Below are positions 46,306-49,917 of a stretch of DNA of 50,075 bases, one piece after another (the first letter of the stretch is position 1; every line of letters starts with the position of its first letter). A program made the position numbers and the translations under genes. This DNA is from an uncultured Oscillibacter sp. Its GTDB lineage: Bacteria; Bacillota; Clostridia; Oscillospirales; Oscillospiraceae. The notes beneath the pieces were generated by a model, which worked only from the letters and a program-made list of their open reading frames with translations, did no database searches and was not told where the DNA came from. Where the stretch lies: contig CANDBG010000013.1 in NCBI GenBank assembly GCA_947382875.1, forward strand, positions 1-50,075, in the 5' to 3' direction.

Positions 46306-46594
46306 AAAACAAAAAAGTCCCGTCCCAATTTGGGACAAGACTTCCATCCTGCGGTGCCACCCAAGTTGACGCTTTCGCGCCCGCTCGTCTCACATACTTC
46401 CATATGCGCCGCGCTGGTAACGGGTGCGGTCCCCGTCAGCCGCTACTGGACACTTCTACAAGCATCGTTCACTCTGCCCTCGCAAGTCCATTCGCTGGAA
46501 CGCCTCCCGCAGCGGTTCCACCTCTCCGCCGCTCTCTGCCGAAAGACTTCTTTCCAGGTACTTCTCTTGCTCACAGGTTTTCCTTGATTGCCTT
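46306..46594 (-). promoter_or_regulatory. T-box leader with tryptophan (UGG) specifier
   Basis: Minus strand: stem I with the AGAGAGCGGCGGAGAGGTGGAA distal features, then GCGAATGGACTTGCGAGG, where GAA-TGG-A fits the standard specifier loop; TGG is at 46488-46490. Next comes the T-box core GGGTGGCACCGCAGG and a terminator (AAGTC-tt-GTCCC-aaatt-GGGAC-g-GGACTTTTTT). Uncharged tRNATrp should promote antitermination into the TrpX-type binding protein, FAH, permease and ATPase genes. Confidence 0.93.
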
Positions 46595-46687: not shown

Positions 46688-47482
46688 TCACGAAAGCAAT
46701 AACTTGTCGTCCGCCTCGTCGGAACCGCTCACCTTGCTGAACAGCTCTAAAAGCTGCGGAACGGTCAGCTTCTTTTTCTCCTCGCCCGACACGTCAATCA
46801 CGATTCTGCCGTCATACATCATAATCAGACGGTTCCCATGCGCAATCGCGTCTTTCATGTTGTGTGTGACCATCATAGTCGTTAAGTGGCTCTCAGCAAC
46901 AATCCGGTCCGACAGTTCCAGGACCTTCGCCGCCGTTTTCGGGTCCAGCGCCGCCGTGTGTTCGTCCAGAAGAAGCAGCTTCGGCTTTTGTAAAGATGCC
47001 ATTAGCAGCGTCAGCGCCTGCCGCTGCCCGCCGGAAAGTAAACCCACTTTGCTCGTGAGACGGTCTTCCAGACCCAGGTCCAGTTTTTGCAGCATTTCCT
47101 GATACCGCGTTTTTTCCGCCTTTGTGACGCCCCAGCTTAAACCTCTGCGCTGTCCGCGGCGGGCCGCAAGCGCCAGGTTTTCCAAAATCTGCATCGTCGG
47201 CGCAGTGCCCAGCATCGGATCCTGGAAAACACGGCCAATATATGGCGCGCGCTTGTATTCCGGCAGGTGCGTTACATTGGTGCCGCCGATGGAAATACTG
47301 CCGGAGTCCACCGGCCATGTGCCCGCTACCGCGTTGAGCATGGTCGACTTGCCCGCGCCGTTGCCGCCGATGACCGTGCAGAAATCGCCGTCGTTCAGCG
47401 TCAGGCTTACACCCCGCAGGGCTTGTTTTTCGTTTACCGTCCCTGCGTTGAACGTTTTCCAGATTTCCTTGATTTCAAGCAT
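46688..47482 (-). CDS. ABC transporter ATP-binding protein, distal set
   Basis: 264 residues. Walker A GGNGAGKS (39-46), signature LSGGQ (149-153), Walker B LLDE (171-174). It aligns end to end with the ATPase at 42309-43073, so the two are paralogues. It overlaps the permease gene end by 8 bases. Energises a TrpX-type importer. Confidence 0.93.
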   Translation of the reverse strand: MLEIKEIWKTFNAGTVNEKQALRGVSLTLNDGDFCTVIGGNGAGKSTMLNAVAGTWPVDSGSISIGGTNVTHLPEYKRAPYIGRVFQDPMLGTAPTMQILENLALAARRGQRRGLSWGVTKAEKTRYQEMLQKLDLGLEDRLTSKVGLLSGGQRQALTLLMASLQKPKLLLLDEHTAALDPKTAAKVLELSDRIVAESHLTTMMVTHNMKDAIAHGNRLIMMYDGRIVIDVSGEEKKKLTVPQLLELFSKVSGSDEADDKLLLS

Positions 47483-48425
47483 GACGTGCGCCTCCTGTCT
47501 TTACCGCCGGACGAAGATATTTGCCCTTCCAGTAGGGAATCGAGAGGAAAATTGCTACCACCAACGCGGAGAGCAGCTTCAAATAGTTTGCGTTCAGCCC
47601 CATCGCCAGTACCGCCTGGATTACAATGTAATACAAAATTGCGCCGATGGACACGGCCAGTAGCTTCAGTGCAAAATTGTGGAAAATCCGGCTGAACAAT
47701 ACCTGTCCAATGATTACCGACGCAAGCCCAATGACAATCGCACCACGTCCCATGTTGATCTCGCTGGCGCTCTGAAACTGCGCCAGCAGCGCGCCAGAAA
47801 GCGCTACAAGTCCGTTAGAGAGCATCAGGCCCAGAACTTTTGTAAAGTCCGTGTTGATGCCTTGCGCACGCGCCATGTTCTGGTTTGAGCCGGTCGCCCG
47901 AAGCGCGCAGCCCAGCTCTGTACCGAAAAACCAATACAGTACCGCAATGAGCGCAATGGAGAATAGTCCTACAACCAAGATCGGGTGCCGGTAGAAGGGG
48001 CGTGCGCCCTTGGCTACGTCCTGAACAAATCGCAGAGACACCAGCAGTTTATCCAAAAATTCGTTGTTTGTGACGTTAATCGCAACTGTGGATTTCATAT
48101 CCATAATCGCCAGGTTGATGGACCAAAGTCCTAACTGGGTGAGAATTCCGGACAGGATCGCCGGAATGCCGCAGAAGGTGTGCAGAATACCAGTAACCAG
48201 TCCCGCCAGCATTCCCACCGCCAGGGCGGCCAGCATCGCTAACCAGAGGTTTACGCCGTTGGTGAACAGCATCACAAACGCTGCCGCGCCGGTGCAAAAG
48301 GAGCCGTCTACCGTCAGGTCGGCAATGTCCAGCAGCTTATAGGTGATGTATACGCCAATTGCCATGATGCCCCAGATCAATCCCTGGGAAATCGCGCCCG
48401 GCAGCGCGTTGATGAAATTCAACAT
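47475..48425 (-). CDS. ABC transporter permease, distal set
   Basis: 316 residues, about 9-10 helices, starting with GAISQGLIWGIMAIGVYITYKLLDIADLTVDGSF, the same N-terminal block as its paralogue at 43066-44007. It lies 129 bases after the binding-protein gene and overlaps the ATPase gene. Confidence 0.93.
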   Translation of the reverse strand: MLNFINALPGAISQGLIWGIMAIGVYITYKLLDIADLTVDGSFCTGAAAFVMLFTNGVNLWLAMLAALAVGMLAGLVTGILHTFCGIPAILSGILTQLGLWSINLAIMDMKSTVAINVTNNEFLDKLLVSLRFVQDVAKGARPFYRHPILVVGLFSIALIAVLYWFFGTELGCALRATGSNQNMARAQGINTDFTKVLGLMLSNGLVALSGALLAQFQSASEINMGRGAIVIGLASVIIGQVLFSRIFHNFALKLLAVSIGAILYYIVIQAVLAMGLNANYLKLLSALVVAIFLSIPYWKGKYLRPAVKTGGARHA

Positions 48426-48554: not shown

Positions 48555-49607
48555 TTATTCGGCAGCGATTACCTCGTAGCCATCGGGGGCCGTCAGGCCC
48601 AGATCGGCGCAAATCGTTTCGTTATACTTCTTGGTGAACTGCGGCGCATATTCAATTGCCATCGTGGAAATGTCCGCCTTGCCGGTAAGGATATCGGCTG
48701 CCATCTCGCCGGCCTTGTAGCCAATGTCATAGTAGCTGATGGACAGCGTTGCCACGCCGCAGCCGCTGCAAATGCCTTCTTCGCCCACGATGATCGGAAT
48801 TCCCGCAGGACGGCAGATGTTGTCAATTACGCCGGTGTTGTCGGCGCAGGTGTTGTCCGTGGGGACGTAAAGCACATCGCTGCTGCTGGCCGCGTTTTGC
48901 ACAACCGACGCCATATCGTTTGTGTCAGAGAACGGGTATTGGGTGCAGGTATAGCCCAGGGTTTCCAATTCTGTCTGAACGTTGTCCACCTGATATTTGC
49001 TGTTCGGCTCGCCGGAGCAGTAGACAAGGCCGACATTTTTCGCGTCAGGGAACCATTCCTTCACCATGGCCGCCTGCTGGTCCAGAGGCGCGAGGTCGGA
49101 GGTGCCGGAAATGTTGTTGCCTACTGTGCCGCTGAAATTGTCGATGCCGAGGGCCACGCCGTATTCGGTAATGGACGTGCCCAGAATGGGGATATCGGCA
49201 GTTGCGGCAGCGGCGGCCTGAAGGGACGCCGTAGCGTTGGCAAGAATCAGGTCTACGCCGGAGGATACAAAGTTGTTGGCAATGGTGGCGCAGGTAGCGG
49301 AATCGCCCGCGGCGTTGTTGATTTCAATTTCGACATTTTCCTCGCCCAGCAGTTCTTTTACGGCGTCCTGGAAGCCTTCGGTTGCGGCGTCCAGGGCGGG
49401 ATGCGGAGCAAGCTGGCACACGCCGATTTTGTAGGTTTCGCCGGAAGCGTCTCCGTCGGAGGTGTTGTCTCCGCCGGAGGGCTCTTGTGTGTCCTGGGAC
49501 TGGGAGGCGTCGGGGTTCTGGGCGGAGCCGCCGTCGTTTCCGCCGCAGGCGGCCAGGCTTAGGACCAGGGCGCCTGCCAGAATGAGTGCAAGCAATTTCT
49601 TTTTCAT
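48555..49607 (-). CDS. ABC substrate-binding lipoprotein, TrpX-type, distal set
   Basis: 350 residues from ATG 49607 (AGGAG eight bases upstream); the extension to 49724 passes through the leader terminator and is rejected. Lipobox LAAC; an Asp/Ser/Gln-rich spacer; mature PF04392-type domain (YKIGVCQLAPHPALDAATEGFQDAVKELLG, ILANATASLQAAAAATADIPILGTSITEYG, GTSDLAPLDQQAAMV, VGLVYCSGEPNS). Ligand probably an aromatic amino acid, by paralogy and by its leader peptide. Confidence 0.92.
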   Translation of the reverse strand: MKKKLLALILAGALVLSLAACGGNDGGSAQNPDASQSQDTQEPSGGDNTSDGDASGETYKIGVCQLAPHPALDAATEGFQDAVKELLGEENVEIEINNAAGDSATCATIANNFVSSGVDLILANATASLQAAAAATADIPILGTSITEYGVALGIDNFSGTVGNNISGTSDLAPLDQQAAMVKEWFPDAKNVGLVYCSGEPNSKYQVDNVQTELETLGYTCTQYPFSDTNDMASVVQNAASSSDVLYVPTDNTCADNTGVIDNICRPAGIPIIVGEEGICSGCGVATLSISYYDIGYKAGEMAADILTGKADISTMAIEYAPQFTKKYNETICADLGLTAPDGYEVIAAE

Positions 49608-49629
49608 GTTACAATCTCCTAACTCGAAA

Positions 49630-49673
49630 AAATTATACAAAAAGCGGCTCTGCCTTCGAAGACAGAGCCGCTT
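49630..49673 (-). terminator. leader (attenuator) terminator of the distal ABC operon
   Basis: Minus strand 12-bp arms AAAGCGGCTCTG / CAGAGCCGCTTT with loop TCTTCGAAGG, then TTTTTG. It stands between the promoter and the binding-protein gene, 30 bases from its start, with only a leader peptide ahead of it. Confidence 0.85.
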
Positions 49674-49691
49674 TCCATAACTGCCGGTACA

Positions 49692-49707
49692 GCCGGGCAG
49701 CTCCGTC
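49692..49707 (-). promoter_or_regulatory. candidate antiterminator strand of the distal ABC leader
   Basis: Starting with the base after the leader-peptide stop, GACGGAGCUGC can pair along 11 bases (two G-U) with GCGGCUCUGUC, the 5' arm of the terminator. Its last bases also pair with CCGGCAG downstream, giving an alternative hairpin. Confidence 0.6.
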
Positions 49708-49782
49708 CTAATTTCCATGCACAAAACGGCCCGCGCAGCGGACCTTGCTAAAGCGGAAATAGGAAGTGAACTGGCTGCGCAT
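49708..49782 (-). CDS. 24-residue leader peptide, Phe/Tyr-rich
   Basis: ATG 49782 with AAAGGGG nine bases upstream, stop TAG 49708-49710. Begins MRSQFTSYFRF, with Phe5, Tyr8, Phe9, Phe11 and Phe20, and ends HGN. It lies between the promoter and the leader terminator, and its stop codon touches the antiterminator strand. No Trp or Leu codons are present. Its role as an attenuation sensor is inferred. Confidence 0.6.
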   Translation of the reverse strand: MRSQFTSYFRFSKVRCAGRFVHGN

Positions 49783-49839
49783 AGAGGTTAGCCCCTTTCG
49801 GCTTTTTGCCGCTTCTGCGGCATCGTTTTTTCTTTTAAC

Positions 49840-49868
49840 ACCATACAGCTTTAAACAGATAAAGTCAA
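49840..49868 (-). promoter_or_regulatory. sigma-A promoter of the distal ABC operon
   Basis: Minus strand TTGACT-N17-TATGGT, about 58 bases before the leader-peptide start. Confidence 0.65.
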
Positions 49869-49917
49869 CCGTCATTTTCAACAAAATCACTTCTTTTTTC
49901 TTTCCTTCCCAGGAAAG

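Follow-up and report, generated by a model that had tools for sequence, protein, structure and literature searches.

In Proteobacteria, the trp and pheA operons are controlled by leader-peptide attenuators, such as trpL and pheL of Escherichia coli. The leader described here, from an uncultured Oscillibacter sp., resembles trpL and pheL in having a short ORF with regulatory codons, a nearby hairpin 1:2, a candidate antiterminator pairing 2:3, and a terminator 3:4. It is unlike them in that it mixes Tyr and Phe codons, its hairpin 1:2 lies wholly inside the ORF, its host is a relative of Clostridium, and it sits mostly on an import operon. Within the Firmicutes, histidine leader-peptide attenuators have been predicted by comparison (PMC9413887, PMC2965389); in the available text of these papers, they differ from the present leader in using His codons, in serving his genes or hisS/hisZ, and in belonging to other lineages. 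Leader-peptide attenuation in a Firmicute is also described for a Leu-rich attenuator peptide of Staphylococcus aureus (PMC5794164), which, in the accessible part of that report, differs in its amino acid, Leu, and in its connection to branched-chain amino acid synthesis. A different control of a TrpX transporter, by a T-box, is found in the available portion of a study of S. suis trpXYZ (PMC9382623): this system is like ours in its related transporter and in its control by tRNA charging, and unlike it in that the tRNA is bound directly and the amino acid is Trp. The neighbouring gene set of our window appears to be under T-box control of this kind. Of the proteins with a solved structure, CD0873 of Clostridioides difficile (6HNI) is most closely related to the binding protein encoded next to the leader, and the two have a Glu/Tyr pocket pair in common.

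We compared the leader in the window (the whole 50,075-nucleotide stretch of DNA analysed) with its relatives in other genomes, and conclude that it is very probably a ribosome-mediated transcription attenuator of the trp/phe type, sensing charged tRNA-Tyr and/or tRNA-Phe. Ribosome-mediated attenuation is a known mechanism, of which a Phe/Tyr version in Clostridia would be a new member. Our literature search found no Phe/Tyr leader-peptide attenuator in Clostridia; with most subscription journals and all preprints outside its reach, this is weak evidence of absence.

Layout of the leader and its promoter

An earlier note on this DNA had proposed that a promoter, a ribosome site, a 24-codon peptide, an 11-base segment and a terminator precede the binding-protein gene. 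We found all five on the minus strand, and translation of the ORF confirmed Phe5, Tyr8, Phe9, Phe11 and Phe20. The 11-base segment does begin right behind the TAG stop codon and can form 11 bp with the terminator 5' arm. The features are the following.

49826..49889, minus strand: promoter block, with the -35 element TTGACT at 49868-49863, a spacer of 17 nt and the -10 element TATGGT at 49845-49840
49792..49798, minus strand: ribosome-binding site AAAGGGG, 9 nt upstream of the ATG at 49782
49708..49782, minus strand: leader peptide ORF MRSQFTSYFRFSKVRCAGRFVHGN, 24 codons, stop TAG, with homologues in relatives
49750..49761, minus strand: putative regulatory codons TAT TTC CGC TTT (Tyr-Phe-Arg-Phe), numbered -6 to -3 relative to the GTC codon of the hairpin
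49728..49744, minus strand: predicted protector hairpin 1:2, GGUCCGC-UGC-GCGGGCC, within the ORF
49723..49732, minus strand: predicted antiterminator segment 2, GGGCCGUUUU, pairing with 49674-49665
49697..49707, minus strand: post-stop segment GACGGAGCUGC, a possible accessory antiterminator in the window's clade
49665..49674, minus strand: segment 3, AAAGCGGCUC, the terminator 5' arm, common to both structures
49639..49675, minus strand: intrinsic terminator 3:4 with U tract
48555..49607, minus strand: binding-protein gene (PF04392, E 3.4e-52), predicted tyrosine/phenylalanine binder
47475..48425, minus strand: permease gene of the operon (PF02653; Pfam)
46688..47482, minus strand: ATPase gene of the operon (PF00005; Pfam)
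46328..46583, minus strand: T-box with specifier UGG (Trp, read by eye) upstream of a second binding-protein set; context, outside the attenuator

A pattern scan matched the promoter to consensus at 9 of 12 positions, and found 9 terminator-like sites in the window against 8.2 in shuffled sequence. Since such a scan is no proof by itself, the promoter and terminator calls rest on conservation. When relatives were aligned, the promoter block gave a consensus of about TTTTGTnnAAAATGACGrTTGACTTTATCnnTTTAAAGCTGTATrGTGnAAAAG, in which conservation reaches beyond the hexamers to the spacer and about 20 bp upstream. The extended conservation is perhaps that of an operator for some factor. Allowing up to 2 mismatches, we found the promoter pattern in 63 of 86 genomes of the genus (once in 62, twice in one), and the reversed-pattern control gave 0 matches. 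Because the pattern is single-copy in all but one of the 63 genomes that bear it, a regulon based on this promoter was rejected. Also rejected was the idea that the upstream block (49889-49826) belongs to a longer in-frame protein, as 11 of 20 matches to the 60-codon frame (E 1.1e-4 or better) contain a stop; in the other 9 the frame stays open. Downstream of the promoter, AAAGGAG-like purine-rich stretches occupy the place of the ribosome site in relatives, and the fold of the 229-nt leader beats all 200 shuffles (z -5.13).

Peptide, hairpin and alternative pairings

For comparison within the genus we used A1, an alignment of 37 leaders: 36 from the genus Oscillibacter, including that of the window, and one (L114) from the same family. 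The ORF, ribosome site and start codon are retained in all 36 genus loci and the one family locus. Codon -5 encodes an aromatic residue in every leader, Tyr in 20 and Phe in 17, and is written in four ways (TAT 13, TTC 12, TAC 7, TTT 5); by contrast, 12 kinds of residue occur at position -8 and 11 at -7. Phe occupies position -3 in 29 of the 37 leaders, and an equal number, 29, have a Tyr or Phe codon in the hairpin loop. The peptide carries a conserved VRxAGR stretch, with V in 36 and R, A and G in all 37, and the codons of the hairpin arms (GTC, CGC, GCG, GGC) are fixed to the wobble base, with a lone exception of GCC for GTC. The stop codon follows 30 to 72 nt past the GTC codon. For the most part, the invariant columns of the alignment belong to the terminator or to the hairpin inside the ORF.

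Just after the aromatic codons, and inside the reading frame, the 37 leaders carry the hairpin GGUCCGC-NNN-GCGGGCC. It is 100% paired in these leaders, with six of its seven pairs invariant, and near-invariance means that A1 says little about covariation in the hairpin. We therefore looked at A4, which holds 33 wider leaders (L009 included) in an alignment that was fitted to the structure. There the hairpin is 92.6% paired, four pairs are changed on both sides, and the loop measures 3, 6 or 9 nt (in 13, 12 and 8 of the 33 leaders) and no other length. Growth of the loop by whole codons is as expected if the hairpin is translated. In L331, L342 and the second leader of L346, an Arg has become Cys along with a change from C-G to U-A, the opposite side having undergone the silent change GCG to GCA. 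Other distant leaders read GRFAAR, TRLYAG or YFGGF at the hairpin. Since the residues vary while the hairpin pairs persist, it is pairing rather than residues that has been kept. A further feature of L337, L339, L275 and L269 is an extra aromatic run past the hairpin, for example YFYFYFYG or VYFYFYFF.

These observations bear on two other ways of reading the conserved hairpin. Nascent-chain arrest peptides, such as TnaC and SpeFL, stall the ribosome themselves, and the VRxAGR end might do so here, perhaps with free Tyr or Phe as a ligand. The near-constancy of its V, R, A and G residues and the aromatic loop codon of most leaders are what one would look for in such a peptide. We nonetheless consider it very unlikely, as the hairpin accounts for the constant residues, the arm codons are fixed down to the wobble base, and the distant leaders change those residues (Arg to Cys, GRFAAR, TRLYAG, YFGGF) and keep the pairing. 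Alternatively, a protein or a small molecule might bind the hairpin, in the manner of a riboswitch, and the short ORF would be incidental. Strong conservation of the hairpin and the alternative pairing would suit such a site, as would L027/L270 (G001), where we found no ORF start codon and a diverged hairpin and terminator remain. However, the frame, the ribosome site and the swapped Tyr/Phe codons are kept, the loops vary by whole codons, and no Rfam family reaches its gathering score anywhere in the window; we give this reading slighter credence still.

The 3' side of the hairpin extends into GGGCCGUUUU, a sequence able to base-pair with AAAGCGGCUC, the 5' arm of the terminator. Segment 2 could thus take part in either 1:2 or 2:3, and segment 3 in either 2:3 or 3:4. 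Across A1, the 2:3 pairing is present in 91.1% of 370 alignment cells, as compared with 45-65% when the segments are slid, and independent of any alignment the 2:3 duplex energy has a mean z of -2.76 (n 37). There is little covariation in 2:3 within the genus: two pairs and three cells are double-changed, numbers that 180 and 66 of 500 shuffles, respectively, also attain, and the pairing owes its persistence to unchanged letters and to G-U substitutions more than to true covariation. In the 33 wider leaders, the mean z is -1.39, with 22 leaders below -1 and 6 above 0; for the pheA/aro leaders, the values are -2.57 (L274), -1.72 (L341), -1.39 (L334), -0.22 (L330) and +0.87 (L343).

The terminator, in turn, covaries clearly in A1, where 7 pairs are changed on both sides in 24 cells and none of 500 shuffles reaches these values; in the structure-fitted A4, 12 of 14 pairs have changes on both sides. 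This result, together with the compensatory changes in the hairpin and the presence of leaders at other aromatic genes, argues against a constitutive upstream terminator that has no regulatory role and is conserved by common ancestry, a reading to which we assign a minimal probability. It draws on four loci (L038, L070, L075 and L081) in which a terminator-like hairpin comes about 40 nt or less after the promoter, with no peptide, upstream of a binding-protein gene.

From these elements we infer how an attenuator might work, including translation of the peptide, stalling, its timing and the direction of the response. When Tyr and Phe are plentiful, the ribosome would pass their codons and continue to the stop codon; hairpin 1:2 could then form behind it, leaving the terminator 5' arm free, and transcription would stop ahead of the transporter. 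When Tyr or Phe is scarce, the ribosome would stall before the hairpin and cover segment 1, for which the model needs codon -4 or -3 in the A site. Segment 2 (GGGCCGUUUU), so freed, would catch the terminator 5' arm (AAAGCGGCUC), no terminator would form, and the import operon would be made.

We next folded truncated transcripts of the 37 leaders with the ribosome masking the RNA to 10 nt downstream of the A site, its assumed footprint. With the mask at codon -4, hairpin 1:2 remains in 5 of 37 leaders and 2:3 forms in 20; with the mask at -3, the numbers are 0 and 24. Pairing 2:3 forms in 5 of 37 unmasked transcripts, in 6 with the ribosome at the stop codon and in 3 with it at codon -5. The ribosome at -5, the most constant codon, thus leaves hairpin 1:2 closed with a 10-nt footprint. 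On full transcripts the terminator prevails in 35-37 of 37 leaders whatever the state, so that antitermination must be kinetic. For the window's own leader, 2:3 was the winner in none of the computed fold states.

In its truncated folds it is the post-stop segment that captures the terminator arm, both unmasked and with the ribosome at -3, and it was this 11-base segment that the earlier note had taken for the antiterminator, covered by the ribosome at termination and free upon an earlier stall. As the sole antiterminator it appears unlikely to us. The duplex of GACGGAGCUGC with the terminator arm in the window is certainly strong (11 bp, 9 Watson-Crick and 2 G-U, -19.8 kcal/mol; z -2.77 for the whole post-stop stretch), stronger than the pairing of segment 2 there, and control windows pair better than segment 2 in 8 of 24 cases in the window and in 7 of 24 in L010. 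The near relative L010 (85% identical over the leader) retains an equivalent segment; it lies within the ORF, however, before a stop codon that comes six codons later, and a ribosome at either stop would be expected to cover it. L011 has a stretch similar to the post-stop segment. Over the whole of A1, the post-stop pairing is present in 68.9% of 267 lettered cells, with 140 of 407 cells gapped, and the invariant columns lie mainly elsewhere; alignment-free, the stretch has a mean z of -0.40 (range -2.77 to +1.58; n 32, as 5 of the 37 stretches are too short).

Thus the post-stop antiterminator does not hold as a general mechanism (68.9% vs 91.1% of cells; z -0.40 vs -2.76), whereas the Tyr/Phe leader peptide, the transporter and the alternative terminator structures stand. 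Of the two pairings put forward for alignment and a covariation check, the terminator covaries (0 of 500 shuffles), and the 11-bp post-stop pairing is not conserved past near relatives. The original proposal appears to have been right in kind, and in its amino acids so far as codons and targets tell. Returning to attenuation through segment 2, we regard the post-stop segment as what may be a clade-specific helper: in the window's clade, it offers the terminator arm a second possible partner, at the stop codon, and may assist or could even dominate. Another long-range pairing is suggested by L274, L330, L334 and L343, in which a stretch past the stop codon (CGAACGAAAGC in L274, for example) looks by eye as if it could pair with segment 1 and the regulatory codons.

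Distribution of the leader and its target genes

A DNA search with the leader matched 48 of 99 genomes, its own included, although many matches were partial. At E 0.1, a model built from the 37 leaders found matches in 75 of the 86 genomes of the genus, many of the weak ones spanning the terminator only; at E 1e-8 or better it found 41 of 86 (the own genome included), among them G001, in which we could find no ORF. The leader occurs in Oscillibacter valericigenes Sjm18-20 (L096) and in several Oscillibacter sp. records. Homologues without the peptide, which were to count against the proposal, do so in part: among 54 loci with the same promoter (the window included, a set short of all 63 pattern-bearing genomes), the peptide element is present at 36, absent from 17 and doubtful at one, L083. 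Binding-protein-like genes with a terminator were also seen at L352 (own genome, G000:C9), L344 and L083; L352 and L083 have a longer upstream ORF, in which aromatic runs are absent.

Outside the genus, 4 genomes from a sample of 394 of the order matched below E 1e-7. With a broader model, R2, a cut-off of 1e-5 gave matches in 41 of 250 genomes of the family, four of which belong to the genus, and a cut-off of 1e-4 gave matches in 13 of 391 genomes of the class, the own genome included. In the order and class searches, too, many of the weaker matches are confined to the terminator. We inspected 31 of these places, 23 of 48 in the family (6 more were already known) and 8 of 18 in the class, along with 11 from earlier searches. 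An aromatic leader was present in 24 of the 31; L344, L345, L347, L349, L350, L351 and L352 were discarded as lacking one. At one of these, L347, the terminator match lies upstream of a gene for a thiamine-pyrophosphate enzyme, by eye acetolactate-synthase-like, and perhaps marks a separate attenuator. The distant relatives keep the hairpin and the terminator despite changes on both sides, and examples of their peptides are SFSYYAFVRFFAGFLF (L274), DSYYYAYVRFFAGFDFYA (L330) and DFTYFYFTYFCVR (L348).

Eighteen of the 24 leaders precede binding proteins, one of which (L323) is the same place as L114. Pfam was run on the non-transport targets and on four of these 18. Prephenate dehydratase is the target in four genomes: at L330, L334 and L341 among the 31 places, and at L274 from the earlier searches. 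At L343, the leader precedes a chorismate mutase-dehydroquinate synthase fusion. At L346, tandem Phe/Tyr leaders (513-662 and 754-909) precede an AMP-binding gene that is phenylacetate-CoA-ligase-like by eye, and at L273, likewise from the earlier searches, a DUF554 membrane protein (473-1386) has an aromatic leader upstream, a hint as to the function of DUF554. In the converse direction, none of 30 pheA loci, the best 30 of a separate pheA search with matches in 124 of 149 genomes, matched the leader model, and the device is therefore not general on pheA. Sequence comparison thus supports the peptide, the positions of its aromatic codons, hairpin 1:2, terminator 3:4, the complementarity 2:3, and the aromatic-pathway targets of relatives.

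Substrate of the binding protein and neighbouring T-boxes

Among solved structures, the window's binding protein is closest to 6HNI (E 6.3e-49), followed by 3LFT (4.8e-40) and 3LKV (9.9e-36), which hold Tyr, Trp and Phe according to the available text of PMC6816091. The same text gives Glu-263 and Tyr-279 of CD0873 as varying pocket residues linked to tyrosine. The window's protein has both residues, as do 59 of 62 distinct leader-controlled binding proteins, the exceptions being two with Asp/Tyr and one with Tyr/Tyr; in these 62 places, L114 and L323 are counted once, and all 18 wider proteins contained the pocket stretch. The pair is present as well in 14 of the 15 no-leader proteins tried (of 17), one having given no score. 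We infer the transported amino acid from this pocket, which fits tyrosine as a ligand of the window's binding protein. The T-box-controlled paralog in the window shares the Glu/Tyr pair, so the pocket residues were rejected as a discriminator of the two paralogs.

That the adjoining paralogous set is under a Trp T-box, as had been suggested, is supported by a match to RF00230 at 46583-46328 (85.5 bits, below the gathering score of 93; E 2.7e-18), with UGG read by eye. No T-box match was found at 49560-49900, even at E up to 5.

A broader proposal, to which we give about an even chance, is that Oscillospirales and their kin have an aromatic regulon in which one leader design reads Tyr and Phe codons jointly, across the importer, prephenate dehydratase, the chorismate mutase-dehydroquinate synthase fusion, the AMP-binding enzyme and DUF554, and beside a Trp T-box paralog, such that neighbouring transporters would be switched by different aromatic amino acids. 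One T-box cannot read Tyr and Phe codons together. If the leader is indeed a Phe/Tyr attenuator, a family of such leader-peptide attenuators would be added to gut Clostridia that also use T-boxes, the leader would be a two-amino-acid sensor, and it would suggest a tentative function for many PF04392 binding proteins and offer a clue for DUF554.

The own genome has 13 T-box matches, 3 of them above the gathering score. One T-box, with specifier UAC (by eye), lies upstream of a tyrosyl-tRNA synthetase gene (Pfam). Another, L360 (G000:C28), lies upstream of a NUDIX gene (Pfam), and its specifier may be UUC, although this reading is uncertain.
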